From positions 1 to 52,962 of the forward strand of contig JASHPB010000292.1 of NCBI GenBank assembly GCA_030038355.1: a stretch of 52,962 bases of DNA, in the 5' to 3' direction. Positions within the stretch are counted from its first letter, which is position 1; every line of letters starts with the position of its first letter. Made by a program: the position numbers and the translations under genes. Positions 24,794-42,797 of this stretch are shown one piece after another. Origin of the DNA: Candidatus Binataceae bacterium (GTDB lineage Bacteria > Desulfobacterota > Binatia > Binatales > Binataceae). The notes beneath the pieces are model-generated. The model was not told the DNA's origin and searched no databases. It saw only the letters and a list, made by a program, of their open reading frames with translations.

Positions 24794-25154
24794 CGGCTTT
24801 GTAGTGGCACTACCGACGGCCAGGAGGCCTAAGAGCGTTTTGCTCGTTCTCCAGCAGCCGCTGAAAGCCGATAGCGCGCGCGACGACTGATCCATTATGC
24901 GGCAACGCCAATAATGGACCCAGAATTTTCTATCAGCGGGACTGGAATCTAAGCGATTCGGGTGGTTAGCCGCCGAAGAGTCGCGCTCCGATGACGGAAC
25001 CGCGCAGCAAACTGCCGCTTGGGCCTCAAGGTGGGTCTCTATCGCCATGCGGAGGGTGGGAATCGCGCCGCGCGGCGCGCGCTCAATCGACGCCGGGCGC
25101 GACCGCGCAGTGGCAGGCAAACGGCGCCGCTGCAGGCCGTCGAGAGTGACGAAG

Positions 25155-25380
25155 ATGGCGCCGCGCCGCGGCGCTCAGAGGCTCGGCCCGCTTGTCCCCC
25201 CAGAATTGCAGCCGCCCCGGCACGATTCTCTACGCCGAGCTTGTCCAGAATCCGGTTCGTGTGCTTGCGCGCCGTGTCGTGGCTGATGCCGAGCATGATC
25301 GCGATTTCTGGACCGGTCTCGCCATGGGCGATCTATTGCAGCACTTCGGCCTCCCGCTCGCTCAGCCCCCAAGCGCGTCA
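25155..25380 (-). pseudogene. LuxR-type response regulator C-terminal HTH remnant
   Basis: In one minus-strand frame: GLSEREAEVLQ, an in-frame TAG where a Trp is normal, then IAHGETGPEIAIMLGISHD and TARKHTNRILDKLGVENRAG. This is the four-helix GerE/LuxR DNA-binding domain of a NarL-type regulator. The receiver domain is absent, its place being taken by the antisense of hipB, so the gene is truncated and has a nonsense mutation. Confidence 0.65.
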
Positions 25381-25405
25381 TCATCCGTCGGCGCCGCGTT
25401 TTGTT

Positions 25406-25750
25406 AGAACCCCATCAGATCTAGGTGCCCTCATACGGGAGCGCCGTCAGAAACTCGGCCTCGACCAACTCACACTCGCCAAAAAAGCAGGCACCAGCCG
25501 AAAGTGGCTTATCGAGGTCGAAAATGGGAAACCTCGTGCCGAAATTGGCCTTATTCTGAGGACGTTGAAAGCTCTAAGGATCGAGCTTACGGCGAAGCCG
25601 CCGCAAAATGTCTCCGGACGAACGCTGCGTAAACGCGGCGTGAAGCCAATCGATATCGACTCCGTCATCAATTTCCTCAAAAGCACGCATGAACGACCAC
25701 CGCCTCGTAATCGCCAACGCCAAGAAATGCGGGCCGTTGCATTATCGTAA
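25406..25750 (+). CDS. hipB: HipB-like antitoxin (Xre HTH), 5' end uncertain
   Basis: The frame encodes TPSDLGALIRERRQKLGLDQ and LTLAKKAGTSRKWLIEVENG, a Cro/CI-type helix-turn-helix of the HipB kind, then a basic tail. The reading frame runs upstream without a stop, but there is no ATG, GTG or TTG near the natural start (about 25406), because the LuxR remnant abuts it. It overlaps the hipA start by 62 bases, as in real hipBA operons. HipB represses the operon and neutralises HipA. Because hipA is broken, this antitoxin gene is probably an orphan or also dead. Confidence 0.5.
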   Translation, partial: RTPSDLGALIRERRQKLGLDQLTLAKKAGTSRKWLIEVENGKPRAEIGLILRTLKALRIELTAKPPQNVSGRTLRKRGVKPIDIDSVINFLKSTHERPPPRNRQRQEMRAVALS

Positions 25751-26934
25751 TGCCCGCCTCTCTTTTGTTTACCAAGATTCATGGAGAGACCAGAATTCCT
25801 ATCCGCTCTCCCGTTCCATGCCGCTCGCGTCGGCCGAGCACGGCCATCCGTGGGTCCACGCTTTCCTGTGGAACCTCTTTGCCTGACAACGAAAAGACTC
25901 TTGAAAGCTGGGCTAGAAGATTTTCACTTTTCCTCACGCGACCGTTTCGCCTAATCGAAAATGTTGGCGAGGACTGTCCAGGCGCGAATCAGTTTGTCAC
26001 TCCCGAGCGGCTTAATGACATGCGCGACGAATCGAGCCACTGCGAGATCGAATGGCTTAACGAAAACGACATTGCCGGCGGCTGGCGGCCTTGCGCGCGG
26101 AGCACTCCGCATGGCGCGCAGCATCGGACACAGGCCAATTCAGCCTTGCGGGCGCGGAGCCTAAGACAGCTTTCATCTTTGAGAACGGCAAATGGGGAGT
26201 TCCTTCGGGCCAATCGCCAACCAGGCACACGTTAAAGCCGCCGACGGCGAGTGGGACGGTCATGCTGAGAACCAGCACTTCTGTCTGCTTCTCGCAAGAA
26301 AACTGGGCCTTGTTGTTCCATACTCAAATGTCCGGCGCTTCGGAAGGAAACAGCAATCGTCATCGAACGATACGACCGTATCCGAAGCGCCAACGAATGG
26401 CTCCGCGTACACCAGGATGAAATGTGTCAGGGGCCCGGAACCGCTCCCACGCGCAAGTAGGAAAATCAGGGTGGTCCCGGAATCGTCCAAATTGTGGCCT
26501 GCTCAGAGAGAACTCCAGCAATTCGCAGCAAGATGGCGATCATTTTTAGATGCGATTGCCTTCAATTGGCTGATCGCGGGAACTGACGCCCACGCAAAAA
26601 AGTTACGCACTCCTTCTCGCCGCGCAAGGTGCAGTGCGACTCGCTCCGCTTTACGACCTAGCAAGCGTTCTGCCAAACCGCGCAATCGACGCGAATAAGG
26701 CCAAAATCGCCATGAAGCTCGGCGGCGAATACAGACTTCGGACTTCGGAACATTTCTAAGCGAACTCAGCTTAAACTGGCAGCTGATCTACGGATACCCG
26801 ATGACGCCCTTATAGAGCGCGTTCGATCGATCGCCGCAGAAGTTCCTCAACAGACGGCGGCAATCGAGAGAGAACTTGCAGACGAGGGGCGGTCACATTC
26901 GCTGATAGCGATTTTGGCTCGCAAGCTGCGCTAG
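25689..26934 (+). pseudogene. hipA: HipA-like Ser/Thr kinase toxin, multiply frameshifted
   Basis: Successive plus-strand frames give, in order, VIANAKKCGPLHYRNARLSF and SMPLASAEHGHPWVHAFLWN (25689-25884), DNEKTLESWARRFS and LIENVGEDCPGANQFVTPER (25885-26085), RAEHSAWRAASDTGQFSLAG (26091-), HAENQHFCLLLARKLGLVVPYSN (in part), DAIAFNWLIAGTDAHAK (about 26545-26600), LYDLASVLPNRAIDANKAKI, and a C-terminus ending near 26934. These are the N-subdomain, G-loop area and catalytic core of HipA, which phosphorylates glutamyl-tRNA synthetase in E. coli. At least four frameshifts make it inactive. Confidence 0.75.
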
Positions 26935-28314: not shown

Positions 28315-29910
28315 ATGCTTGATTCTCGCGTATTCGTCTTCGGACAGTACCGGATTGATCCCATCAATCAGGAGCTGTGGCGAGGTGCCGAAAAGGTTGA
28401 AGTCCGGAGGAAAACCTTCGAGGTTCTCCTGTACCTGGTGCGCAATCCGCGGCGCCTCATTCCTCGGCGGGAACTTCTGGACAACGTCTGGCCGGGGACC
28501 AAGGTCTCGAACAGTCTGCTACGCGGCTATATCTGGGAACTCCGCCGCGTTCTCGGCGATACCGCGACGGCCTCGCACTATCTGGAAACCTTCAATCGAC
28601 GCGGTTACCGCTTCATGCCGCAGGTGTGGATCGAGTCGCGACTCGTTGACGGCTTTGAGGGCGACGTCGCTCGAGCGGTAACCGACTTGGGTGAGAATGC
28701 TTTCGCACCCGAGCAGCCTCAGCCCGCGCCATTGAGGCACCTTCCAGTCAACTACCGGGCATTGCCGTTGCGGGTGGGCGTTCTTCATTCGCTCAGCGGC
28801 ACGATGGCCTACAGCGAGAGCCCGGTGGTCGACGCGACTTTACTCGCACTCGACGAAATCAACCATCGCGGAGGGCTCCTCGGCCGTCGTGTAGAGGCGA
28901 TAGTGGCCGATGGCAGGTCGAACGGCACCGCATTCGCGCGTGAAGCTGAGCGCCTCCTAGTCGAGCATAAGGTGAGTACTTTGTTCGGCTGCTGGATGTC
29001 GGCGCATCGCAAGCAGCTACTGCCGGTTGTGGAAAAGTACGACAATCTACTGATTTATCCGGTGCAATACGAAGGCCTCGAAACTTCGCCGAATTTATTT
29101 TATACGGGCGCGGCACCAAATCAGCAGATAATCCCCGCAATGCGCTGGGCGTTCGGATTCCTTAACCGTCGGCGTTGGTTTCTGGTCGGCTCGGATTACA
29201 TCTTTCCACGCGTTGCTAATCAGATCGTGCGGGATCAAGCCGCGCGATTGCAGGCAGAAATCGTCGCCGAACTGTACATTCCGTCGGGAAGTCTCGAAGT
29301 CAAAGACCTCGTAACTGCCGTCGCTTCGAGCAGGGCCGACTTGATCGTGAACACGATCAACGGCGATAGCAACATCGCATTTTTTCGGTCTCTTCGCACA
29401 ATCGGCGCGACGTCCACGCAAATTCCCACGCTCTCATTCAGTATCGGAGAGAACGAGCTCCGCAATCTCGACATCAGCGGTGATTACGCGGCCTGGAATT
29501 ATTTCCAAAGTATCGATCGACCTGAGAACCGCGTATTTGTCGGCGCGTTTCACTCGCGTTATGGTCCGCAGCGGGTCACCTCCGATCCGATGGAAGCCTC
29601 CTACCTGGGAGTCAATCTCTGGGCTCAGGCGGTCGCCGAGGCTGGCTCCAGCAAGCCCGCCGATATTCGGTCGGCCTTGCGCCATCAGAGTTTCAACGCA
29701 CCCGAGGGCCCGGTGCATATAGATTCCGAAAATCAGCACACCTGGAAGACGATCCGCATTGGCCAGATCAAAGATGATGGTCAGTTTGAAATCGTCTATA
29801 GCTCCGAGAAGCCGATCCGACCAGAACCATTCCCGGATACTCGCTCGAAACAAGATTGGCAACGCTTCGTTGACCGACTGATGTCAGCGCAACCTAAGCC
29901 CTCTTGCTGA
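28315..29910 (+). CDS. One-component regulator: OmpR-type winged helix fused to a UrtA/AmiC-like urea-binding domain
   Basis: A 531-residue fusion. Residues about 5-102 are an OmpR/PhoB/CadC-type winged helix (FGQYRIDPINQELWRG, KTFEVLLYLVRNPRRLIPR, ELLDNVWPG, YLETFNRRGYRFMPQ). Residues about 103-150 are a Pro-rich linker without a membrane segment. Residues 151-515 are a type-I solute-binding domain that closely follows UrtA encoded 2 kb downstream: RVGVLHSLSGTMA, YPVQYEG, GAAPNQQIIPA, GSDYIFPR, NTINGDSN and DYAAWNYFQS. There is no signal peptide, so it should be cytoplasmic, like the amide sensor AmiC. Likely role: bind urea or short amides in the cell and switch the porin-urt-ure operon. 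ATG 28315 begins exactly at the wHTH; ATG 28234 is an alternative. No receiver or kinase domain is present. Confidence 0.85.
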   Translation: MLDSRVFVFGQYRIDPINQELWRGAEKVEVRRKTFEVLLYLVRNPRRLIPRRELLDNVWPGTKVSNSLLRGYIWELRRVLGDTATASHYLETFNRRGYRFMPQVWIESRLVDGFEGDVARAVTDLGENAFAPEQPQPAPLRHLPVNYRALPLRVGVLHSLSGTMAYSESPVVDATLLALDEINHRGGLLGRRVEAIVADGRSNGTAFAREAERLLVEHKVSTLFGCWMSAHRKQLLPVVEKYDNLLIYPVQYEGLETSPNLFYTGAAPNQQIIPAMRWAFGFLNRRRWFLVGSDYIFPRVANQIVRDQAARLQAEIVAELYIPSGSLEVKDLVTAVASSRADLIVNTINGDSNIAFFRSLRTIGATSTQIPTLSFSIGENELRNLDISGDYAAWNYFQSIDRPENRVFVGAFHSRYGPQRVTSDPMEASYLGVNLWAQAVAEAGSSKPADIRSALRHQSFNAPEGPVHIDSENQHTWKTIRIGQIKDDGQFEIVYSSEKPIRPEPFPDTRSKQDWQRFVDRLMSAQPKPSC

Positions 29911-29925: not shown

Positions 29926-30477
29926 TACCGATCACGGCAGTGGTTGGTGCATGACATGGTTTGTTCGATGCTTAATAGATTCATTCCTGCTGTGCATAGC
30001 GCTTTGGCAAACGATAGTCCGCAGAGGGTCAAGCGTTTAAGAGGTCGTCAAATTGCCGTCAAATTTTAGCCGAACCCTTCAACTCCTTTACTTCGATCCT
30101 CAGAATTCGAGTCAGTTTGGTTGCTCAACAATTAATCTCGGCGTGCTTGATTTGTGCGCAGCTTCACCGCGCCACGTTGCCGAGTGAACTACACTCTCAA
30201 ACCTCTCGATTTTGCTTTCCGGCGGCATTTGGCACCTGAGGCCCGAGCTTCAGTGACTCTCCAGTTAGCTACCAGCTCCTAGTTCGAATTTTCGGTTCTC
30301 ATCTCTTAGGCACACCTAGAACGGTTGTAGTCCTGATCGCGAAGCTTCAAGCGCATCGCAGTGCCTTCATGGCATCTGGGTTGCTGTTGGGCGATTTGTT
30401 GAAACGCGCATCTGCTTTAGAAGGCGCTTCATAAGCGTTGGTTCTCTAACGACTTTGCTTTAACGGTGGGAGGATCC
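29926..30477 (+). promoter_or_regulatory. Long regulatory gap before the porin-urt-ure operon
   Basis: About 550 bases separate the regulator from the porin gene, far more than any other gap in the 13-kb module, and it contains no gene. It is the natural place for the operon promoter and its operators. It is A/T-richer than the genes and holds the tandem repeat listed at 30046. No GG-N10-GC sigma-54 promoter was found; a TTTGGCAC at about 30227 lacks the matching GC. Confidence 0.55.
30046..30067 (+). promoter_or_regulatory. Tandem 11-bp direct repeat, candidate operator
   Basis: CGTCAAATTGC is followed directly by CGTCAAATTTT: two head-to-tail 11-bp units sharing the first nine bases. OmpR/PhoB-type winged helices bind head-to-tail to direct repeats with an 11-bp period (pho boxes have a TGTCA core and an A/T-rich tail). 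This fits the regulator encoded just upstream. Confidence 0.45.
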
Positions 30478-31944
30478 GTGAAACCGCAAGTTAAGCCAAA
30501 TACGTGGTATCGAGCTGCTGGTGTGATCGGCGTCACGTTCGCGATCGTTATGAGTCCAGTTAGAGCCAAAGGCGCCGAACTGTCCGCATCTTCGACGCCA
30601 ACGGTACTCGCCGAGGAATCAACCAGTTCTTCCTCGGCCGCAACCATCGCTGAACTCAGGCAAGAAATAGACTCCGAGCGCAAGCGTACCGCCGAACTCG
30701 AGAAGCGTCTCGACCAGATTCAGGAACAGCAGGAGAGTCAGGCCAAGACCATCAAGCAATTGCCCAAGCTTAATGTTGGCCGCGCAGCGGAGGTCACGCC
30801 CGGAATCACCACCGGTCTCGCCCCGGCCGATATCTACAACCGGGGTTTCTTTCTTCAATCCAACCAGAAAAGATTTTCTCTGTTTATCAACGGTCTTTTC
30901 CAGATCCGGTACACGCTATTCGCTCCCAACTCTGTGATCCACTATGGAGCGCTCGAGAACACGCAAAACACCTTCGACGTGTTCTTGGGCCGGCTGGCCT
31001 TCTCAGGTTCGGTCTTCGCTCCTGATTTAAAGTACTTCGCGCAAATTCAGGCCAGCACCGCCGGGAATAGCAATACAATTTCCATGCTCGACTGGTTTGT
31101 CTCCAAGACTTTCTCACAATACCTGACAGTGCAGGCGGGGCGATCGTGGATTCCATACACGTACGAATACTACGACAATCCAGGAAACTATCTGTTCGCT
31201 GACCTGTCGACCGCGGAGTATGCATTCCTGCTGCAGCGCGCGATTGGTGTTCAAGCCTCCGGTCAGGTGGGCAATCTGAGCTATGCGGGCGAGGTGATGA
31301 ATAGCGTTCCAGCCCTCGACGCCGCAGGTCAGGAGAACTTGGGAAGCAAAATGGCCTATCTTGGTCACCTCCACTACGACCTGCTGCAGCCATATGGTTA
31401 TGTGGAGTCCGATCCAAATCCGGACGGGACTTGGAAGCCGGAGCTGACGCTGTGGCTGTCGGGAATGTACAATCCGGTCGATTACTCATCCGGATTTCAG
31501 AACGCTCGAGCCGGCGATCGCACTTACGGAGCAACTCCCTCAATCCTTTTCCGCTATGGCTTCCTGAGCTTTCAGGGCACTGGCTACTACCGCCGCACGC
31601 TGCAAGCCGCCGGAGGCGGCCCGAGCTATGATTCTTGGGGCTATGGAGAGCAGGCCGGCTACTACCTAGTTCCGGCTACATGGGAACTGGCAGAGCGAGT
31701 TTCGGGCGTATGGTGGGGGCAACCTGAGATAGCTTCTACCGGCGGGAATCAGACCAACTGGTTCAGCGGGCCAACAAATTTCCCATACCATCGCATCACT
31801 GAATATTCCGTCGGGCTTAACTACTACCTATTCGGACATAACGCGAAGGTTCAGGGTGATTATTCGTATCTGGCGGGTAGCGGTTTCGATAATCATTCCT
31901 TTGGTGCGAACCGCGTTGAACTCCAAACTCAAGTGATGTTCTAG
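30478..31944 (+). CDS. Outer-membrane porin (FmdC-like) of the urea operon
   Basis: A 488-residue precursor from GTG 30478, seven bases after GGGAGG. A signal peptide (to about residue 32, VMSPVRAKGAE) is followed by a Ser/Ala-rich stretch, a coiled coil (AELRQEIDSERKRTAELEKR), and a long beta-strand region with alternating aromatics that ends in Phe (QTQVMF), the mark of a BAM-assembled outer-membrane barrel. OprP-like porins share this layout. Its place just before urtA recalls fmdC, the amide/urea-induced porin of Methylophilus. It likely admits urea to the periplasm. First structural gene of the operon. Confidence 0.8.
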   Translation: MKPQVKPNTWYRAAGVIGVTFAIVMSPVRAKGAELSASSTPTVLAEESTSSSSAATIAELRQEIDSERKRTAELEKRLDQIQEQQESQAKTIKQLPKLNVGRAAEVTPGITTGLAPADIYNRGFFLQSNQKRFSLFINGLFQIRYTLFAPNSVIHYGALENTQNTFDVFLGRLAFSGSVFAPDLKYFAQIQASTAGNSNTISMLDWFVSKTFSQYLTVQAGRSWIPYTYEYYDNPGNYLFADLSTAEYAFLLQRAIGVQASGQVGNLSYAGEVMNSVPALDAAGQENLGSKMAYLGHLHYDLLQPYGYVESDPNPDGTWKPELTLWLSGMYNPVDYSSGFQNARAGDRTYGATPSILFRYGFLSFQGTGYYRRTLQAAGGGPSYDSWGYGEQAGYYLVPATWELAERVSGVWWGQPEIASTGGNQTNWFSGPTNFPYHRITEYSVGLNYYLFGHNAKVQGDYSYLAGSGFDNHSFGANRVELQTQVMF

Positions 31945-31989
31945 ATGCCACAACCTAAAGTCCGGTCAGAACAGGAGAGAATTGGCGAA

Positions 31990-33237
31990 ATGACAAGCTA
32001 CCATCGAAAAAGCCGCACAAGTGTCGGTTCGAGACGCGAATATCTCAAAGCAGTTGGGATCACGCTGGCTCTGGTCGTGGTTTTAGGCGCAATCAATTCA
32101 CGGGCGGAAGCCGACGATTCAACTGTCAAGGTTGGAGTGCTCCACTCGCTGACCGGCACGATGGCAATCAGTGAGGTTACTGTTGAGAATGCGACGATGC
32201 TGGCTATTGATCAGATCAATGCTGCCGGCGGAGTAAACGGCAAACAGATTGTACCGATCGTCGAAGACGGTGCCTCGGAACCGGCGACATTCGCGCAGAA
32301 AGCACAGAAGTTGATACAGGAGGACAAGGTCGTTACGGTGTTCGGTGGTTGGACGTCAGCCAGCCGCAAGGCCATGCTGCCGGTGTTCGAACGGTTTCAT
32401 GGACTGCTTTGGTATCCCGTGCAGTTCGAAGGCAATGAGTGTTCGGCAGACATAATGTATTCAGGCGCTCAACCCAATCAGCAGATTCTCCCTGCGCTTG
32501 AATGGGCGGAACAGAAGGGCTACAAGAGCTATTTTCTCTTGGGTTCCGACTACGTATTCCCTCGTACCGCTAACCTTATATTGAAGAAGCACATTGTTCA
32601 CGACGGCCTCAAAGTGGTTGACGAAGAGTACGTGCCACTCGGCGGCACGGACTTCAGCGCGATAGTCAACAAAATCCAGGCCGCGAAACCTGACGTCGTT
32701 TTCAACACGCTGAATGGCGACAGCAACGTGTCATTTTTCAAGCAAATGTCGGCTGCGGGACTTCCTTCGTCCAAGCTACCGGTAATGTCATTTAGCATCG
32801 CCGAACCGGAAGCCAAAGCGATGGGACCCTCGCTTGTTCAGGGCAGCTACGCGGCATGGAACTACTTTCAAAGCCTCGATGATCCAGCCAGCAAAAAGTT
32901 CGTTGCAGACTACAAGGCCAAGTACGGTTCTGATTCCGTGGTCGACGATCCGATGGCGCACGGATACCTGGACGTTTATGTTTGGGCTGCTGCTGCTGAG
33001 AGGGCCAAGAGCTTTGATGTGGACAAAGTACGGCGCGCAGCAGTGAAGCTCGAATGGAAAGATATCGTCATGGGCAAGACAAAATTTGCCGTTAATCAGA
33101 GTCTCTATCAGACGGCCTACGTGGGCCAGCTCGACGCGAGCGGACAATTTGACATCCTTTGGCATTCGCAGAAGCCCATTTTTCCTGAACCTTATGATCC
33201 ACTCGCGTTTCCGGGCAAAAAGTGCGTCATCCCCTAA
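31990..33237 (+). CDS. urtA: Urea ABC transporter substrate-binding protein
   Basis: A 415-residue periplasmic binding protein. The N-terminus carries a twin-arginine-type export signal (SRREYLKAVG) and a hydrophobic stretch ending near SRAEA. The mature part begins STVKVGVLHSLTGTMA and has the UrtA marks WYPVQFEG, GAQPNQQILPA, GSDYVFPRTAN, NTLNGDSNVSFF and WNYFQSLDDP. I chose ATG 31990 (AGGAGAG upstream); an in-frame ATG at 31945 directly after the porin stop would add 15 residues. It delivers urea to UrtBC. It is the close relative of the ligand domain in the upstream regulator. Confidence 0.95.
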   Translation: MTSYHRKSRTSVGSRREYLKAVGITLALVVVLGAINSRAEADDSTVKVGVLHSLTGTMAISEVTVENATMLAIDQINAAGGVNGKQIVPIVEDGASEPATFAQKAQKLIQEDKVVTVFGGWTSASRKAMLPVFERFHGLLWYPVQFEGNECSADIMYSGAQPNQQILPALEWAEQKGYKSYFLLGSDYVFPRTANLILKKHIVHDGLKVVDEEYVPLGGTDFSAIVNKIQAAKPDVVFNTLNGDSNVSFFKQMSAAGLPSSKLPVMSFSIAEPEAKAMGPSLVQGSYAAWNYFQSLDDPASKKFVADYKAKYGSDSVVDDPMAHGYLDVYVWAAAAERAKSFDVDKVRRAAVKLEWKDIVMGKTKFAVNQSLYQTAYVGQLDASGQFDILWHSQKPIFPEPYDPLAFPGKKCVIP

Positions 33238-33299: not shown

Positions 33300-34211
33300 A
33301 TGACTGAATTCGCACTTCTAATAGGACAGGGATTCAACGCCGTAAGTGTCGCGTCGATTCTGTTGCTGGCAGCGTTGGGGCTTGCCTTGAGCTTTGGCTT
33401 GATGGGTGTGATCAACATGGCCCATGGCGAGCTGCTCATGATGGGGGGATATCTTACCTATCTCACCCTTCAGTATCTTCCGCACGGTATCGGCTATCCG
33501 ATTGGCATGCTCGTGGCCTTCGCAGGTACCGCGATCTTCGGCGCCATCCTTGAGGTTACATTGATTCGGCGACTTTACGGGCGTCCGTTGGATACGTTGC
33601 TGGCGACATGGGGAGTTAGCCTTATTCTGCAGCAGGCGGCACGGAGCATTTTCGGCCCTATAGGTAACGAGGTGACCGCCCCCGCCTGGCTTGCCGGATC
33701 GATAAGAATCTCGGGCGGGCTTTTGCGAGGGCTAGATCTGCCTGTGTCGCGCCTCTTCATAATTATGCTTTCGGCGGCCGTTCTGGGTTTGGTCGCATTA
33801 CTGACCACACGCGCGAGGATGGGGATGCTAGTGCAGGCGGTCCATCAGGATCGTTCGATGGCTGAAGCGCTGGGAATCAACACGCGGATCGTGGATCTGC
33901 TGGTGTTCGCGATAGGCAGTGGAGTCGCGGGTTTGGCCGGTTCAGCGCTGGCATTGATAGCGCCCGTTACGCCTACAGTCGGACAAAGCTATATCGTATA
34001 CGCCTTTTTGGTGGTAATCGTCGGCGGTCTGGGCAGCCTGCTAGGAACCGCAATGGCGGCGTTGATGGTAGGATTGTTCTCAGCCGGCTGGCAAATCTTC
34101 ACGAGTGTGAGCACGTCCGATGTGCTGTTGCTCGTATTTGTGATCGCTTTCATTCAGTTCCGGCCTCGCGGCATGGTAAGCATCCGTTCGCGTTCCCTCG
34201 AGGAGACCTGA
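33300..34211 (+). CDS. urtB: Urea ABC transporter permease
   Basis: A 303-residue branched-chain-type permease with about eight hydrophobic helices. Family signatures are LALSFGLMGVINMAHGELLMMGGY, PLDTLLATWGVSLILQQAARSIFG, MVQAVHQDRSMAEALGIN (EAA-like coupling loop) and VVIVGGLGSLLGTAMAALMVG. UrtB pairs with UrtC in the membrane. It lies 62 bases after urtA and 1 base before urtC. Confidence 0.95.
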   Translation: MTEFALLIGQGFNAVSVASILLLAALGLALSFGLMGVINMAHGELLMMGGYLTYLTLQYLPHGIGYPIGMLVAFAGTAIFGAILEVTLIRRLYGRPLDTLLATWGVSLILQQAARSIFGPIGNEVTAPAWLAGSIRISGGLLRGLDLPVSRLFIIMLSAAVLGLVALLTTRARMGMLVQAVHQDRSMAEALGINTRIVDLLVFAIGSGVAGLAGSALALIAPVTPTVGQSYIVYAFLVVIVGGLGSLLGTAMAALMVGLFSAGWQIFTSVSTSDVLLLVFVIAFIQFRPRGMVSIRSRSLEET

Positions 34212-34212
34212 A

Positions 34213-35352
34213 GTGCGCCGGATCGCGGTCGTTGCGAGCAGCGTTGGGATGCTCCTATTACTGTTCGCCCCCTTTTGCATCGGTGCCTACAACCTGTCTT
34301 TGCTCGGACGCTTTCTTGCGATGGCGATTCTGGCGCTAGGGATTTCGCTGGTATGGGGCAGTGCGGGGATTCTTCCGCTTGGGCAGGGGTTGTTCTTCGG
34401 CTTGGGTGCCTACGCTGTGGCGATGCATCTCAAGCTCGAAGCCCTAGGCCCTGGCGAAATACCTGATTTCATGCAATGGAACGGGCTTAATTCCTTACCC
34501 TGGCTATGGGTTCCCTTCAAAAGCGGGGTTTTTGCGATCGCCGCATCCGTAATAGTCCCAGTGTTATTCGCGGCGGCGCTTGCGTGGTTGTTGTTTCATC
34601 GGAGGGTCGGCGGAGTATATTTCGCGATTATCACGCAAGCGCTCGCTCTCGCGGCGACGACCTTCATCATCAGCCAGCAACCTTACACGGGTGGCTTCAA
34701 TGGCCTGACAGATTTCGCTAATGCCTTCGGCTTTGCTCTTTCCGATCAGCGGACGCAGACTGACCTCTATTATCTGACCCTGTTGATACTCGCCTTGTCC
34801 TTCCTCGGGAGTTGGTGGCTGCTTGAGACTCAATTCGGAAAACTGTTGCGTGCCATCCGTGACGGCGAAAACCGCGTTCGCTTTTTCGGTTATGACCCCG
34901 CGCCCTATAAGGTGGCCGTTTTTGCAATTGGCGCTATGCTCGCAGGCGTGGCGGGAGTTCTGTTCACGCTGAACATAGGCGTGATTTCGCCCGCCATGAT
35001 TGGTGTCGTTCCCTCGATCGAAATGGTGATTTGGGTCGCCGTAGGAGGACGCGAATCTCTCATCGGCGCGATTCTCGGCACGCTTTTGGTAAACTTCGCC
35101 AAAGACAAGATTAGCAGCGCCTTTCCAGAATTATGGCTGTATATGATGGGCGGGCTTTTTGTCCTGGTAGTGACGGTTTTGCCCGAGGGTCTCGGCGGTC
35201 TGCTGCGATTATTAGGTCCCGAGCCTGAGGAATCGAGAAAGACTCTTGCCATTGCACCGGTGGTTAAGGCGAGCGAGGAGGTACCGCGCTTCGAACGCCA
35301 AGAGACCCCCGATCAGCTGAAAAAGAGAATGAACGGTGGAGCAGTGCAATGA
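34213..35352 (+). CDS. urtC: Urea ABC transporter permease
   Basis: A 379-residue LivM-type permease starting at GTG 34213, one base after the urtB stop. It has the hydrophobic helices and family motifs ALGISLVWGSAGILPLGQGLFFGLGAY, ITQALALAATTFIISQQPYTGG, LLRAIRDGENRVRFFGYDP (coupling loop) and VAVGGRESLIGAILGTLLVNFAKD. The hydrophilic C-terminal tail of about 50 residues is typical of UrtC. Its stop overlaps the urtD start (ATGA). Confidence 0.95.
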   Translation: MRRIAVVASSVGMLLLLFAPFCIGAYNLSLLGRFLAMAILALGISLVWGSAGILPLGQGLFFGLGAYAVAMHLKLEALGPGEIPDFMQWNGLNSLPWLWVPFKSGVFAIAASVIVPVLFAAALAWLLFHRRVGGVYFAIITQALALAATTFIISQQPYTGGFNGLTDFANAFGFALSDQRTQTDLYYLTLLILALSFLGSWWLLETQFGKLLRAIRDGENRVRFFGYDPAPYKVAVFAIGAMLAGVAGVLFTLNIGVISPAMIGVVPSIEMVIWVAVGGRESLIGAILGTLLVNFAKDKISSAFPELWLYMMGGLFVLVVTVLPEGLGGLLRLLGPEPEESRKTLAIAPVVKASEEVPRFERQETPDQLKKRMNGGAVQ

Positions 35353-36116
35353 CCGAACCATTACTCCGAGTCGAACATCTTACTGTCTCATTCGAAGGCT
35401 TTAAGGCGCTCGACGATGTGAGTATTTCGCTCATGCCAAAAAGTGTCGAAGTCATCATCGGGCCGAATGGAGCCGGCAAGTCAACTTTGATGGACGCCAT
35501 CATCGGGCGCGTTCATCCCGTGTCGGGACGCGTGATCCTCAAGGAAGCGGAGGTAACAAGGCTTCCCGAATACTTGATCGTGCGGCGCGGCATTTGTCGC
35601 AAGTTTCAAACCCCCGGAATACTGCCCAGCCTGACAGTCGAGGAAAATATTCTGGTGGCAGCGACACGCGAGCGCGGATGGCTCAGTACTATGCGCCGTT
35701 CGATCAGCTCCGCTGTGAAAGCTCGGATCGACGAAATTCTGGAGCTTGTCGCGTTACGCGAGAAGCGTCGCATGCTGTCGGCTCATCTTTCTCATGGTGC
35801 AAAACAATGGCTTGAAATCGGCATGGTAGTCGCCTCCGATAGCGATCTTTTGCTGCTCGACGAACCTGCGGCCGGAATGACCCATCAAGAGCGGTCAAAG
35901 ACGGCGGAACTGATAAAAGGGCTCGCTCGACGTCATGCAATCGTCGTCATCGACCACGACATGGACTTTGTCGAGCAACTCACGGCACCTATTACCGTCC
36001 TTCACATGGGACGGATATTGTGCCAAGGAAACATCGAGACCGTTCGTAATGATCCTCAGGTTCGCGCGGTCTACCTAGGCCGCGCCGCCCAGGAAGCCGC
36101 CGATGCTCAAGCTTGA
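35349..36116 (+). CDS. urtD: Urea ABC transporter ATP-binding protein
   Basis: A 255-residue ATPase of the LivG type. Walker A GPNGAGKSTLMDAI, a degenerate signature LSHGAKQWLEIG, and Walker B LLLLDEPAAGM are visible, followed by IVVIDHDMDF with the H-loop. The LSHGxKQWLEIGM signature is characteristic of UrtD. It overlaps urtC by four bases and urtE by 14 bases, showing translational coupling. Confidence 0.95.
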   Translation: MTEPLLRVEHLTVSFEGFKALDDVSISLMPKSVEVIIGPNGAGKSTLMDAIIGRVHPVSGRVILKEAEVTRLPEYLIVRRGICRKFQTPGILPSLTVEENILVAATRERGWLSTMRRSISSAVKARIDEILELVALREKRRMLSAHLSHGAKQWLEIGMVVASDSDLLLLDEPAAGMTHQERSKTAELIKGLARRHAIVVIDHDMDFVEQLTAPITVLHMGRILCQGNIETVRNDPQVRAVYLGRAAQEAADAQA

Positions 36117-36810
36117 GGAGGTAGGGGCCGCATACGGAATCAGCCCGGTGCTGACTGCCATACGGCTCGAAATTGCAGAAGGCGAAGCCGTAGCTCTGCT
36201 CGGGCGCAACGGAGTGGGCAAGACGACCTTGTTACGTACTATTGCGGGACTGCACCCGATGACAGCCGGCCGGCTGACTTTCGAAGATCGCGATATTACC
36301 ATGATGCCCGCTTACAAGCGTGCTCGACATGGAATCGCGCTGGTACCACAGGGCCGCGGTATATTTCCCCATCTGACGGTCGAGCAGAATCTGCTCCTGG
36401 GATTTTCGGCTGTCAGCGAGAGCATCTCCGGAGCCAAGAACGAAATTCCGGCCTATGTTTTCGAGATGTTTCCGGCCTTGACGCGTTTACGCGCGCGCAA
36501 AGGTGGGGTGCTTAGCGGCGGCGAACAACAGCAACTTGCAATAGGCCGTGCACTTGTCGCGCAGCCGCGGCTAATGTTGCTTGACGAACCCACCGAAGGT
36601 ATTCAGCCGTCAATCGTGAAAGAAATTGGCGAGGCCCTCAACCGAATAAGAAGGGACATGAAAATCGCGATCTTGCTGGTAGAACAATACCTGCAGTTTG
36701 CCTGGACGATCTCCGACCGCTACTACGTCATGCAGCGCGGTAGAATCGTGAAGAGTGGCGACACGCGCGTTCAATCGCCCGACGCGATCGCGCATCTAAT
36801 GAGTGTCTAA
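36103..36810 (+). CDS. urtE: Urea ABC transporter ATP-binding protein
   Basis: A 235-residue ATPase of the LivF type, with Walker A GRNGVGKTTLLRTI, signature LSGGEQQQLAIGRAL, Walker B LMLLDEPTEGIQPSI and the H-loop replaced by ILLVEQYLQFA as is normal in LivF/UrtE proteins. Together with UrtD it powers urea import. Urease structural genes follow after 17 bases. Confidence 0.95.
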   Translation: MLKLEEVGAAYGISPVLTAIRLEIAEGEAVALLGRNGVGKTTLLRTIAGLHPMTAGRLTFEDRDITMMPAYKRARHGIALVPQGRGIFPHLTVEQNLLLGFSAVSESISGAKNEIPAYVFEMFPALTRLRARKGGVLSGGEQQQLAIGRALVAQPRLMLLDEPTEGIQPSIVKEIGEALNRIRRDMKIAILLVEQYLQFAWTISDRYYVMQRGRIVKSGDTRVQSPDAIAHLMSV

Positions 36811-36827: not shown

Positions 36828-37130
36828 ATGCGGCTCACTCCCAGGGAAATTGATAAGCTGCTCATATTCACCGCGGGAGAGCTGGCACGTCGCCGAAGGG
36901 CTCGCGGTCTGAAGCTTAACTATCCGGAAGCAAATGCACTTATCACGGCCGAAATTTTGGAAGGTATTCGAGACGGTCGTTCCGTTTCGGAGCTGATGGA
37001 ATTTGGCGCCACAGTTTTAACCCGCGAAGACGTAATGGAGGGTGTACCTGAGATGCTTGACCAGATCCAGGTTGAGGGAACTTTTCCTGATGGCACAAAA
37101 CTGGTGACTGTCCACCAGCCGATTAGGTGA
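36828..37130 (+). CDS. ureA: Urease gamma subunit
   Basis: A 100-residue protein with the full gamma-subunit pattern: [69 protein letters not shown] (as adjoining blocks). The gamma chain frames the active site of the alpha subunit in the trimeric (abg)3 urease. Separate gamma and beta genes are the usual bacterial arrangement. 30 bases separate it from ureB. Confidence 0.97.
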
Positions 37131-37160: not shown

Positions 37161-37532
37161 ATGATCCCAGGCGAATACCTCCTTGCTGACGGCGAAATTG
37201 TAGCCAATGCCAATCGCCATACCGAACACCTCCGCGTTGTCAACACGGGTGACCGTCCAATCCAGGTCGGATCACACTTTCACTTCTTCGAAGTCAATCG
37301 AGCGCTGGCCTTCAACCGCTCCAAGGCATTCGGCATGCGACTAAACATTCCCTCGGGCACGGCGATGCGATTCGAACCGGGCGACGACCGGGAAGTTGGC
37401 TTGGTACGTCTCGGCGGCGCAGGGGTGGTATACGGACTAAACAATCTAACCAACGGCCCTACCACGGCAGCACGAAAAGGCGGCGCGCTGCGCCGCGCGC
37501 ACCAGCAGGGTTTCGATCACGACGCGTCATGA
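37161..37532 (+). CDS. ureB: Urease beta subunit
   Basis: A 123-residue protein beginning [17 protein letters not shown], with [28 protein letters not shown], and [17 protein letters not shown], the conserved beta-subunit core. The C-terminal 20 residues are Arg/His-rich. Its stop overlaps the ureC start by four bases. Confidence 0.97.
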
Positions 37533-39247
37533 CTCTAAGAATCCCGCGCTCACAGTATGCCGAACTTTACGGACCAACGACGGGCGATCGAATCCGTTTG
37601 GCCGACACGGAATTGATTGTTGAAATTGAACGCGACCTGACTGTGCCTGGTGACGAGGCAAAGTTCGGCGGCGGCAAAGCGCTGCGCGATGGAATGGGAC
37701 AGTCTTCGACAGTGAGCTCTGAAGCCGGCGCGCTCGACCTCGTGATAACCAATGCTGTGATCCTTGATCACTGGGGCATCGTGAAGGCCGACATAGGAAT
37801 TCGCGGTGGGCGCATCGTCGCGATTGGCAAAGCCGGCAACCCGGACGTCATGGAGGGGGTCAGCCCTGGTATGGTCGTCGGCGCCGGCACAGAGGCGATC
37901 TCCGCCGAAGGACAGATTGTGACCGCGGGCGCGATCGATGCCCACGTTCACTTTATATGTCCACAGCTTGTCGCCGAAGCTATATCCTCTGGAGTTACGA
38001 CGCTATTTGGTGGAGGCACGGGACCAACTACCGGAACCAAAGCTACCACTTGTACTCCGGGCCCGTGGAATATCCAGCGAATGTTACAAGCCGCGGAGGG
38101 CCTTCCCGTCAACTTGGGCTTTCTGGGTAAGGGCAATTCCTCAACACCCATCCCGTTGCGCGAACAGCTCATGGCCGGTGCAATAGGTCTCAAACTGCAT
38201 GAAGATTGGGGCACCACGCCGGCTGCCATCGATTGCGCGCTCACGGTGGCCGACGAATATGACGTTCAAGTCGCTATACATACCGATACGCTGAACGAAA
38301 GCGGTTTTGTGCAGGACTCGATAGCTGCCTTCAAAGGCCGCACGATTCATACCTATCACACTGAAGGCGCGGGCGGCGGTCATGCTCCGGATATCATAAA
38401 GGTGTGTGGCGAGCCTAACTGCCTACCCTCGTCCACCAATCCAACGATGCCATTCACCGTGAACACTCTCGATGAACATCTCGACATGTTGATGGTTTGC
38501 CATCATCTCGATCCTAAAGTGCCGGAAGATGTAGCTTTCGCCGAGTCCCGCATCCGCGCCGAGACTATCGCTGCCGAAGACATTCTCCATGATCTGGGTG
38601 CGATCAGCATGATGTCCTCGGACGCTCAGGCGATGGGCCGGGTCGGCGAGGTGGTGATCCGAACGTGGCAAACCGCTGACAAGATGAAGCGTCAACGCGG
38701 TTCACTCGAGGGCGACCCCGATCGCAATGACAACTTTAGGGCTCGCCGTTATGTTGCAAAATACTCAATCAATCCGGCGATTGCGCATGGCGTATCGCAC
38801 GAAATCGGCTCGGTTGCCGTTGGTCGTCTGGCGGACCTTGTGATTTGGAAGCCGGCATTCTTCGGCGTCAAACCTGAGCTAGTTCTCAAAGGCGGTATGA
38901 TCGCGTGGGCAGCGATGGGTGATCCTAATGCTTCGATTCCCACTCCCGAGCCTGTGATCTACCGGCCGATGTTCGGCGCCTATGGCCGGGTATCGGCCGA
39001 GTGTTCAGTGACCTTCGTTTCGCGCGCCGCCGAGGATGCAAGGGTCGGCGCTCGCCTCGGACTTGTGCGTAAGACAGTAGCCGTGAGCAGCTGCCGTGGG
39101 CTTTCGAAGCGCGACATGGTCAATAACGACCTGTTACCTCGTATCGAAGTCGATCCGGACACTTACGAGGTGCGCGCCGACGGCAGACTCATAACCTGCG
39201 AGCCTGCGGCGATTCTGCCTATGGCGCAGCGGTATTTCTTATTTTGA
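37529..39247 (+). CDS. ureC: Urease alpha subunit (catalytic)
   Basis: A 572-residue nickel amidohydrolase that splits urea to ammonia and carbamate. Visible active-site parts: [12 protein letters not shown] (two Ni-ligand His), the carbamylated lysine in [42 protein letters not shown], and the flap cysteine and histidines in [13 protein letters not shown]. All are intact and the length is standard, so it should be active. Coupled to ureB and ureE by ATGA overlaps. Confidence 0.98.
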
Positions 39248-39693
39248 TGACGATTTTCATAGAGCATCTTCCGGTGGTGTTGGGAGTCGAAGAACTATCG
39301 CGCCTTGAGTGCGATACCATTGTGATGACCTCGGAGGAGCGACGGTGGTGTCGGCGGCGCGCCTCCACGACTCAAGGACGAGAGATAGTGCTTGCGCTGC
39401 CGACAGGTACGATACTCGAACCGGGGTCGGTAATTGCAATTCAAAAGAATTGGTATCTTAGAGTCGAGGCGGCGCCTGAAAATGTGCTTGCGGTTAGACC
39501 GTGCAGTCGAGAACAAGCAATAACGATTGCCTTTGAGATTGGCAATCACCACTTTCCTTTGGCTCTCGATGGGGAGGAGCTTCTTGTTCCCGACGATATC
39601 GCGATGGAACAGTTACTCAATCGCCTCGCGGCTCGATGGGAGCGTCGCCGTACGGTCTTTGTACCGCTTGCACGTGGCCATTCTCATGACTAG
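39244..39693 (+). CDS. ureE: Urease accessory protein UreE (nickel chaperone)
   Basis: A 149-residue protein with the UreE domains: an N-terminal peptide-binding part ([23 protein letters not shown], as two blocks) and a metal-binding part with [24 protein letters not shown] in which GNHHFP is the conserved nickel site. The C-terminus ends with only a short HSHD, without the long His tail of some UreEs. It hands nickel to UreG. Its end overlaps ureF by 8 bases. Confidence 0.92.
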
Positions 39694-40375
39694 CGACGCG
39701 CTGTTAGCGCTTTTGCAGTTTTCTGACGGCCTTTTTCCAGCGGGAACCTACGCGCATTCTTGCGGTCTTGAGACTTTTGTGCAGGAAGCAATCGTCAGCG
39801 ATGCAGACGGCGTCGAACAGTTCTTGCGCGCTTATCTCCAGGGCGCGGTAGCTAGGACAGACGCGTCCGCGGTGATACTAGCAATGCGCGCGGTGGCTTC
39901 GGATGACTTATCGACGTGTCAGAAACTCGACGCAATTCTTGAAGCCATGAAGCCTGTAACCGAGCTGCGAGCTGCTAGCCGCCAGCTCGGCCGCCAGACG
40001 TTGAGAATCGTGGCTGCGCTGGAGGCAGGTCCGCTGATTCGCGAGTTTCTGGATCTTACGGAAGCCGATGTCACGCCTTGCCATCATGCAGTGGCTTTCG
40101 GAATGGCCGGAGCTGCGTTCGACTGGCCCCTGGTGAATGCGGCGGCGTCCTTTCTCTATACCACGGCCGCCGGATTGACCGGTTCTGCTCTGCGCCTGCT
40201 GCCATTGGGTCAGACTCGGGCGCAGATTATCCTTCGAAACGTGGCGCCGCTTATAAGTTCGCTCGCAGACATCGCGACAAAAGTCGGTATTGATGACCTC
40301 TCTAGCTTTGCTCCCGCGATCGAAATAGCTGCTATGAAACACGAGCGGCTGGAGGCGCGCTTATTCAGATCATGA
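39686..40375 (+). CDS. ureF: Urease accessory protein UreF
   Basis: A 229-residue helical protein starting [29 protein letters not shown], the UreF signature, then [34 protein letters not shown] and [13 protein letters not shown] in their usual places. UreF joins UreD and UreG in the complex that opens apo-urease for nickel loading. ATG 39686 lies inside the end of ureE; longer forms of the frame are antisense-like read-through within ureE. Its stop overlaps the ureG start. Confidence 0.93.
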
Positions 40376-40983
40376 TGCCTAAACCTCTCAAGATTGGAAT
40401 CGGCGGACCCGTGGGTTCGGGGAAGACCGCGTTGGTAGAAACTCTGTGCCGACGTATGAACGGACCACTGCAACTCGCTGTCGTAACCAACGACATCTAC
40501 ACGCGCGAGGATGCTGAGTTTTTGACGCGGCGGCAGGTCTTGTCGGCCGAAAGGATTCTCGGCGTAGAGACCGGAGGTTGCCCACATACTGCCATTCGTG
40601 AGGATGCTTCGGTCAATATTGAAGCAGTACGCCAGCTAGTCACACGTTTTCCCGACCTTGACCTCGTTATTATCGAAAGTGGCGGTGATAATCTGGCAGC
40701 GACATTCAGTCCGGAACTGGTTGATGCCACGATCTACGTGATCGACGTGGCCGAAGGCGATAAAATTCCGCGCAAAGGCGGCCCGGGAATAATTCGTTCA
40801 GGACTGCTCGTCATCAACAAGATCGATCTCGCTCCATACGTGGGGGCTGATCTGGGAGTCATGGAGCGAGATGCACGTAGAGCGCGAGGAGAACGCCCGT
40901 TTGTATTTACCAATCTCCGAGACGGTACCGGCGCCGATCAGATCGTCGCCTGGATCCGACGAGAATTGCTTTTCGCCGCGTGA
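40372..40983 (+). CDS. ureG: Urease accessory GTPase UreG
   Basis: A 203-residue SIMIBI GTPase. P-loop [15 protein letters not shown], the metal motif [17 protein letters not shown] (CPH nickel site), [19 protein letters not shown] and the NKID specificity motif in [16 protein letters not shown] are all present. It delivers Ni2+ during GTP-driven maturation. A second ATG three bases downstream of the first could also serve. Confidence 0.97.
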
Positions 40984-41806
40984 TCGCGTTGGGCGCGATG
41001 GATTCCTTCACTTGACCTTCGCTAGGCGTCGCTCAAGCACCATCTTGCAGAATTGCCGTTTTAGGCATCCGCTTCAGGCGCTCGCGCCAGTGCGTGCGGA
41101 AGATGGTTCGCTTTATGTGATGATGCTTAACACAAGCGGCGGATTGGTTGGCGGCGATCGGCTTCTCACAGAAGTAGAGCTGGGGCCGAAGGCGGAAGCC
41201 CTTCTCATTACAGCCTCGGCGGCGAAGGCCTATCGTACCAACGGCACCCCGTCCATTCAGGATACAGTGGTGCGGATGAAACAAGGGGCGACCCTGGAGT
41301 ATCTGCCGGATCACTTGATTCCGCATCCTGATTCGATCATCCATCAGTCACTCAAGGTCGAGATGGAGCCTGGCTGCCGCGCCATGATCTACGATGCCAT
41401 CGCAGCTGGCCGGATCGCGCGTGGCGAGCGGTGGAATTTTAAAGAGCTGAAGATGGAGACCAGCATTTCGCTGGAGAGCCGACCGGCTTACATAAGTCGT
41501 TCGCTGATCACTCCGGACAGCGAACCCCTGCATCGAATCGGATGGATGCAGAGTTACAGCTATCTCGCGACGATCGTCATCGTAGGCCCGGCCGAGAGCG
41601 ACTGGACGGCACTGTCTTCCGAATTGAACCGCGTTTTGGAGAAATGCTTAGGGATATCAGGTGGAGTTAGTTGCATCAGTCACGGCACTGTGGTGCGCTT
41701 CATGGCCTCCAGCGCTGTCGCATTGAGTTCGGCAAAACGTAACGTTTGGAATATCGGGCGACGATTCCTGCTAGGCCTCGACGCCTTCGAGTTGCGCAAA
41801 TACTAG
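40871..41806 (+). CDS. ureD: Urease accessory protein UreD (UreH)
   Basis: UreD scaffolds urease during nickel insertion. The family part begins [19 protein letters not shown] at 40991 and continues with [54 protein letters not shown] and [15 protein letters not shown] in order, ending at 41806. No ATG, GTG or TTG lies between 40874 and the family start, so the frame's only usable ATG is 40871, inside ureG (113-base overlap), giving 311 residues with an odd N-terminal extension. A non-canonical start or a small sequence error near 40985 would be the other explanation. Last gene of the urea module. Confidence 0.88.
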
Positions 41807-41984
41807 GCGGCGGTGCCACGGCGCATCGGTAGAGAACGTCGGTCCAGCGGCATTAAGTTCGGCCAATACGTGGTTTAAACGGTCTTATAGACTTCACAGA
41901 GATTCAAAGTCGAGTTTGTGGGTCGATCGCGGGTCGAGCAAGAAGTTGTTTAAAGCAATTCGTTCTGTCAGATGCTCGCCGCTG

Positions 41985-42190
41985 AGCTGCGATTCATCTC
42001 GGCAAATCCGATCGAGCTAGTTCACTCTCACATCGCCCGCCGTCCTGAACCGCTGACGAATCGAAACAGCGAAGTATCTCAGCCGCTCTCGGATATCACT
42101 CAGAAACTGCTTGCCAAGAATCCCGAGGATCGATATCAAACAGCGCCACGCATCGTGGCCGATCTCGAGAGCTGTCTCGCTGCAGTAGCG
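41985..42190 (+). pseudogene. C-terminal fragment of a Ser/Thr protein kinase domain
   Basis: The frame reads NPIELVHSHIARRPEPL, then QPLSDITQKLLAKNPEDRYQTA and RIVADLESCLAA. This is the last 60 residues of a Hanks-type kinase domain of the kind found at the front of large kinase-AAA-histidine-kinase proteins. Neither the catalytic loop before it nor the AAA domain after it is present, and the DoxX gene on the other strand starts to overlap it. A relic. Confidence 0.55.
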
Positions 42191-42239
42191 TGCTGCCCCT
42201 TGTCATTGGCCTTCCAACCACGCTGGCGACAATCGTTAG

Positions 42240-42797
42240 TCACGGTTGGCGTTGTTGCTGGTCACGTCTCTTCATCTCGGCGCGCCCTCGACAGATCGCC
42301 ATTCGTCGTGCATCCGCTTTTGACTCAACCCTCTGGCTGGTAATCCTCAGAAATTTATCCACAGCGAGTGGGCCAGGACCAGTCATAACAAGCGCCGCGA
42401 GACAGACGAGGTACAGAAGATCACACTCATATCCCGGAGGACCGAACTGAGCGCCCGCGGGGGTCACGCCAATCAATTTGATAGAGCTGAACCCGTAAGG
42501 CAGGTGCACTGTAAACACTGCAACCAAGAGAACAACGGCCATCGGCACCGCAACGACCGGCACGAGAACACCTAAGATCAGGGCGAAACCTCCCCCGATT
42601 TCCGTAAATATCGTTAGCCAACCCATCAGATGAGGCGCGGGGACGCCCATCGCGTGCAGAATTGTTGCGAATGCTTCAGGTCCCTTGGATAGTTTGGCGA
42701 AACCATGTTCCATGAAGCCAAATCCAACGATCAGCCGCAGCGGCAATGGAGCCCATCGCGCGTACCGATATTGAGCAAAAAGATCGATGAGGAACAT
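42240..42797 (-). CDS. DoxX-family membrane protein
   Basis: A 185-residue protein with four hydrophobic helices. LRLIVGFGFMEHGFAKLSKGPEAFA, then HLMGWLTIFTEIGGGFALILG and VPMAVVLLVAVFTVHLPYGF are typical of DoxX. DoxX proteins take part in thiol or quinone redox at the membrane and are often induced by oxidative stress. The C-terminal 35 residues are basic and may be read-through past the normal end. Coupled to the SnoaL-like gene by an ATGA overlap; the pair lies downstream of a SigF-type promoter. Confidence 0.85.
   Translation of the reverse strand: MFLIDLFAQYRYARWAPLPLRLIVGFGFMEHGFAKLSKGPEAFATILHAMGVPAPHLMGWLTIFTEIGGGFALILGVLVPVVAVPMAVVLLVAVFTVHLPYGFSSIKLIGVTPAGAQFGPPGYECDLLYLVCLAALVMTGPGPLAVDKFLRITSQRVESKADARRMAICRGRAEMKRRDQQQRQP

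Follow-up and report, generated by a model that had tools for sequence, protein, structure and literature searches.

Gene content of the locus

The window analysed here, meaning the whole stretch of 52,962 nucleotides from a Candidatus Binataceae bacterium (contig JASHPB010000292.1), belongs to an assembly of 5.05 Mb in 349 contigs. It carries an intact reading frame, open throughout from 28234 or 28315 to 29910 on the forward strand, whose start methionine at 28315 agrees with the starts of its relatives and whose product, of 531 residues, is hereafter called the regulator. After a gap of 555 bp, and on the same strand, follow genes in the order porin-urtABCDE-ureABCEFGD (Table 1). A reading made from the sequence only had placed the regulator ahead of a transport and urease operon, and the profile searches bear this out: urtABCDE and ureA, B, C, E, F, G and D are all present, with the urt transporter genes and the main urease subunits passing their curated cut-offs, but not UreE. 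No ANTAR protein was found among the operon genes examined.

Table 1. Coordinates of the regulator, its domains and the urea genes that follow it, with the supporting matches
Feature	Position	Strand	Description or match
Regulator	28315..29910	+	winged helix, residues 1-108; disordered linker, ~112-135; UrtA-type ligand domain, ~150-525
Trans_reg_C winged helix (residues 26-100)	28390..28614	+	Pfam E 6.7e-14
Peripla_BP_5 ligand domain (residues 152-511)	28768..29847	+	Pfam E 3.3e-144
Candidate operator	30046..30065	+	CGTCAAATT-GC-CGTCAAATT, perfect 9-bp direct repeat, 11-bp period
Outer-membrane porin (Porin_O_P-like)	30466..31944	+	weak Pfam match, E 1.6e-5; G040 homologue in the same place, 64% identical
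urtA, exported urea-binding protein	31945..33237	+	TIGR03407 519 bits, cut-off 492.75
urtB	33300..34211	+	TIGR03409 over cut-off
urtC	34213..35352	+	TIGR03408 over cut-off
urtD	35349..36116	+	TIGR03411 over cut-off
urtE	36103..36810	+	TIGR03410 over cut-off
ureA (urease gamma)	36828..37130	+	
ureB (urease beta)	37161..37532	+	
ureC (urease alpha)	37529..39247	+	TIGR01792 983.5 bits, cut-off 680
ureE	39244..39693	+	UreE models, best E 2.2e-29, under their equivalog cut-offs
ureF	39680..40375	+	PF01730 E 3e-38
ureG	40372..40983	+	TIGR00101 over cut-off
ureD/ureH	40982..41806	+	PF01774 E 3.7e-45

Two minor features flank these genes. Behind ureD, a short reading frame at 41972-42343 contains a stretch, LLAKNPEDRYQTA, that resembles the end of a protein kinase domain; it has no Pfam match and is possibly a gene remnant. 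On the other side, positions 25019-26698 hold a gene for an HTH_31 helix-turn-helix protein and then fragments that match HipA_C weakly, which may be what is left of a HipBA-type pair.

Domain architecture of the regulator

The regulator combines a DNA-binding and a ligand-binding domain in a single chain. Its Trans_reg_C match scores 52.2 bits against a Pfam cut-off of 26.2, which identifies an OmpR/PhoB-type winged helix; the protein begins with this domain, Pfam detects no Response_reg domain in it, and where a LacI-type helix-turn-helix might stand there is no Pfam match to one but Trans_reg_C in its place. Against TIGR03407, the model for UrtA, the regulator scores 448 bits, under the curated cut-off of 492.75, and the blocks it was thought to hold in common with the UrtA encoded downstream are indeed part of a long alignment with 155 of 361 positions identical (43%; E 7e-106). 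A structure model (mean pLDDT 89.4) is confident for both domains and of low confidence for the linker at residues 112-135.

No membrane helix or export signal was detected in the regulator. The highest 19-residue Kyte-Doolittle mean is 0.89 over the whole protein and 0.32 in all that precedes the ligand domain, whereas membrane-anchored relatives of the same ligand-domain clade reach maxima of 1.68-2.63. As no stretch of it is hydrophobic enough to resemble a membrane segment, the protein is, on hydropathy, most likely cytoplasmic. The architecture described in the sequence-only reading, a winged helix and a UrtA-like domain in one reading frame with neither signal peptide nor membrane helix, thus stands.

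A urea-type ligand pocket

In the structure of PmUrtA with urea (8HIC), the ligand is held by W120, S122, Y141, Q144, E146, Y190, F192, N246 and S274, eight of which are strictly conserved in UrtAs (PMC10392092). The regulator matches Prochlorococcus UrtA at all nine positions (W227, S229, Y248, Q251, E253, Y295, F297, N349 and S376, or WSYQEYFNS in short). Structural comparison agrees: the closest matches to the model are the urea-binding UrtAs 8tg1, 8hic, 7s6e and 7s6f (Z 49-51; rmsd 2.2-2.4 across 367-370 residues), and AmiC ranks after them with Z 46.8. The corresponding pocket of AmiC (YSYPEYYVT) departs at five of the nine positions, and that of FmdD-like Azospirillum proteins (WSYFEYWVS) at three.

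These comparisons bear on the earlier suggestion that the regulator senses urea or an amide, of which the first half is upheld by the urea-type pocket and the second becomes unlikely because AmiC differs at more than half of the contact positions. We regard it as improbable that the regulator answers instead to another small amide or urea-like compound such as formamide, acetamide or methylurea, in the way known from AmiC or FmdD. Such a ligand is favoured by AmiC, which senses amides in the cytoplasm, belongs to the same domain family and has a fold close to the model, by the amide-linked relatives of urea transporters already known (PMC3098086) and by the description of Binatota as methylotrophs using methylamine (PMC8262859); the pocket, however, follows urea-bound UrtA throughout, and genes for urea degradation are encoded in both complete gene contexts described below.

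Related fusions and their gene neighbourhoods

Within the order to which the window belongs, the fusion is found in three of 41 genomes, those of the window, G040 and G009, each from a different genus. G040, a public Binataceae record (JASHOJ010000305, L035), has the gene order fusion-porin-urtABCDE-urea carboxylase-allophanate hydrolase, with no urease behind the block; its urea carboxylase scores 1880 bits with TIGR02712 (cut-off 1304) and its allophanate hydrolase 788 bits with TIGR02713 (cut-off 511). The G040 fusion retains all nine urea-pocket residues and the incomplete G009 copy all eight that are visible. The latter ends at a contig end, where its neighbourhood is not visible, and complete gene context can be seen at two loci only, in the window and in G040. 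The expectation that the fusion would accompany urea genes in related genomes is supported by a second genus. Since urease and the urea carboxylase/allophanate hydrolase pair are unrelated routes of urea degradation, the element common to both loci is urea itself, and urea is, from this gene context, likely to be the signal of the regulator.

The urea carboxylase and allophanate hydrolase genes that take the place of urease behind the same regulator-porin-urt block are at L142:1160-6606. Four urt loci of the same family that have no porin (G024, G028, G030:C46 and G031) also have no fusion, and in G030:C5 a porin lies before urt-ure at the extreme edge of the contig, with the region upstream of it not visible. 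In G028 (L169:6642-9705), a PAS histidine kinase, recognized by Pfam, and a response-regulator-like gene, judged by eye, lie upstream of urt-ure, where they may form another kind of regulator at the equivalent position.

A fourth fusion occurs in one of 162 Vicinamibacterales genomes (L036/G428); it has neither urt nor ure genes in its vicinity, and nothing else in that genome matches UrtA. Its winged helix is 55% identical to that of the window, and non-fused winged helices reach at most 45%; this fits a single fusion event. Its pocket reads WSYQESSVS, with Y190, F192 and N246 (PmUrtA numbering) lost, and, in these few cases, intact pocket and urea gene context appear to go together. The fold is retained in this copy despite the loss of three pocket residues, which shows that such a protein can survive the decay of its urea pocket, and the ligand domain might be conceived as having ceased to bind any ligand and acting only in dimerization or as a protein partner, with nitrogen status reaching the regulator by way of another protein. 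We give this little credence for the Binataceae proteins, which keep the entire pocket even though their ligand domains share only 71% identity from one genus to another.

No fusion was found among 343 genomes of Planctomycetota, and none beyond those described among 395 genomes sampled from the phylum of the window or among 396 of Acidobacteriota; this contig scan looked for identical peptide words and covered the best 80 of 182 relatives, a setting that rarer or more divergent fusions could escape. The soluble fusion is rare, occurring in three Binataceae genera and one Vicinamibacterales genome. Azospirillum matches that aligned from query residue 78 and had been entertained as further fusions are proteins in which a chemotaxis domain precedes one of FmdD type. 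One such protein, a chemotaxis signalling domain fused to an FmdD-like ligand domain on an Azospirillum argentinense plasmid (NZ_CP007794; L144:4903-7329), adjoins genes for an FmdD-like binding protein, a urt-type transporter and a formamidase-like protein, the family of which was judged by eye.

Origin of the ligand domain

The ligand domain had been supposed to stem from a duplication of the neighbouring urtA, an origin in keeping with the 43% identity and the long blocks common to the two proteins. Among the best 80 of 182 relatives, however, membrane-anchored proteins from cyanobacteria, Nitrospirota, Chloroflexota, Verrucomicrobiota and other groups are 57-62% identical to it, closer than the local UrtA. 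When 74 ligand domains were placed on a tree, the fusions nested in a clade of 46 sequences of sensory type (SH-aLRT 99), apart from the local UrtAs, and forcing fusions and local UrtAs together lowers lnL by 58 (p-AU 0.023); the trees were quick ones, computed with no bootstraps. The placement and the AU test disfavour the duplication, which we now hold to be very improbable, and indicate that the ligand domain was recruited from among sensory UrtA-like domains, which form a clade of wide distribution.

A candidate operator and a model for urea-dependent control

OmpR/PhoB-type winged helices bind tandem direct repeats head to tail, in steps of about 11 bp. The gap between regulator and porin contains one perfect repeat whose 11-bp period is the spacing expected for such binding (Table 1). 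In random sequence, a repeat of this kind has a probability of 0.0015 for a period of 11 and of 0.04 for any period from 9 to 22; its core has no other exact match in the genome, and it lies ~400 bp ahead of the start codon of the porin gene. The equivalent gap of G040 holds a weak three-unit match (P 0.009, tested after being seen); when the two fusion-porin gaps were aligned, a comparison separate from the one that revealed the repeat, their common blocks were otherwise no better than those of shuffled sequences, and a scan of the gap for a sigma-70-like promoter found none. No matching repeat was found upstream of the fusion gene, so autoregulation is unsupported. The repeat at 30046-30065 is best taken as a lead, a candidate site for the operator.

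From the architecture, the pocket and the gene context, we consider it likely that the regulator senses urea in the cytoplasm and, as a one-component transcription factor, controls porin-urt-ure by way of cleft closure; the proposed urea-sensor function is well supported. Urea would enter the cell, or arise inside it from the breakdown of arginine or purines, and would bind in the cleft of the UrtA-type domain, the closure of which would alter the pairing of two copies of the regulator. The flexible linker would then allow the winged helices of the pair to line up head to tail along a tandem site ahead of the porin gene and, with the candidate site at 30046-30065 occupied, porin-urt-ure would be switched on; in G040 the counterpart would be control of porin-urt-urea carboxylase. 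We infer, rather than observe, urea binding, DNA binding, dimerization, activation in preference to repression and the identity of the repeat as operator, and the same is true of the direct switching by cytoplasmic urea put forward in the sequence-only reading. Where no transporter is present urea passes through membranes slowly, and cells also produce it themselves, which makes a basal internal signal plausible. An active urease counts against the urea-sensor explanation, as cytoplasmic urea may then be short-lived.

That the regulator activates porin-urt-ure is a guess by analogy, made because of its OmpR-type winged helix, a class whose members are mostly activators that contact RNA polymerase. 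The opposite sign, in which the regulator represses porin-urt-ure and urea releases it from the DNA, is less probable though a serious possibility: LacI and AraR, proteins of the same architectural type, act in just this way as repressors, but the preponderance of activators among OmpR-type winged helices would point to activation.

Comparison with known sensors and regulators

The principle of joining a DNA-binding domain to a fold of the type-I binding-protein class is already known from the LacI/GalR family and AraR. LacI/GalR proteins are likewise cytoplasmic one-component regulators with a ligand domain resembling type-I periplasmic binding proteins, but they have another DNA-binding domain, a ligand domain from another branch and mostly sugars as effectors. 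AraR of Bacillus subtilis couples a GntR winged helix to a LacI-type ligand domain (PMC4218819); like the regulator it is soluble, unites a winged helix with a domain of the type-I periplasmic-binding-protein fold and regulates use of its ligand, and it differs in the GntR type of its winged helix, the GalR/LacI type of its ligand domain and its response to arabinose. AmiC of Pseudomonas aeruginosa is a cytoplasmic sensor from the same ligand-domain family as the regulator but works through a separate RNA-binding antiterminator, AmiR, and has the divergent amide pocket described above. CadC and ToxR also begin with an OmpR-type winged helix and carry a sensory domain in the same chain, yet possess a membrane helix and an external sensor, neither of which is found in the regulator. 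UrtA itself has the same domain and the same nine urea-contact residues; it is exported and feeds a transporter, whereas the fusion lacks a signal and falls under the cut-off for UrtA.

A urea-responsive regulator of urease genes is known in UreR, a member of the AraC family, whose DNA-binding and ligand domains are unrelated to those of the regulator. If our reading is true, the regulator would be a direct, transcription-controlling urea sensor that has no relation to UreR and uses a binding domain of the transporter type. It would also be the natural counterpart of chimeras in which periplasmic binding proteins have been fused to DNA-binding domains by engineering (PMC6079105), differing from these synthetic proteins in being natural and in its combination of a UrtA-type domain with an OmpR-type winged helix, and it could yield a urea-responsive switch. 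A literature search, conducted mostly outside subscription journals, found no description of an OmpR-type winged helix paired with a UrtA-type domain. The earlier view that the architecture is undescribed thus survives for this exact pairing, which together with its direct urea input appears to be undescribed, but not for the principle, which AraR (PMC4218819) and the LacI family already use. The Binataceae are uncultured and, to our knowledge, no regulator from them seems to have been studied so far.

The wider clade of sensory UrtA-like domains

The membrane-anchored proteins of the ligand-domain clade have the regulator's type of ligand domain and most have its urea pocket; in them the sensor is predicted to lie outside the membrane, and output passes through kinases or phosphatases, the proteins having no DNA-binding domain of their own. 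Genes near them code for histidine kinases of the dCache-HAMP kind, for a SpoIIE-type phosphatase or for a chemoreceptor. Among the best 80 of 182 relatives, anchored UrtA-like proteins, most with the urea pocket, are found at L037, L038, L040, L041, L076, L084, L115 and others; directly behind such genes come ones for dCache-HAMP proteins whose output is a histidine kinase or SpoIIE, an arrangement seen across many phyla, Thaumarchaeota among them. In Planctomycetota, L042:8786-11170, L046:8519-11170 and L048:8459-11167 each encode one protein in which a Ser/Thr kinase and a membrane helix are followed by a UrtA-like domain whose urea pocket is intact. The anchored UrtA-like proteins are likely to constitute an undescribed family of urea receptors.

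By a small degree we lean towards a joint reading in which the regulator is a natural urea receptor and transcription factor, made when a UrtA-type domain was brought from outside the cell to inside and combined with an OmpR-type winged helix, and is one offshoot of a large urea-receptor clade that appears to be undescribed and that elsewhere, across many phyla of bacteria and also in Thaumarchaeota, would feed histidine kinases, a SpoIIE phosphatase or Ser/Thr kinases. Members of this broad clade are annotated as urea transport proteins, yet they stand beside or within signalling proteins, and many genomes may therefore hold unrecognized urea receptors; the clade may turn out to be the larger finding.

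The urea pocket is intact in 63 of the 76 non-fused clade members sampled. Another 12 non-fused members, from Planctomycetota and related bins (L085, L087, L090, L091, L094, L095, L097, L099, L100, L102, L103 and L106), share the variant WSYAEYW[VP][AS], suggesting that this subgroup may bind a different ligand. In L100, the gene that follows the one for the variant protein encodes a dCache-HAMP chemoreceptor.
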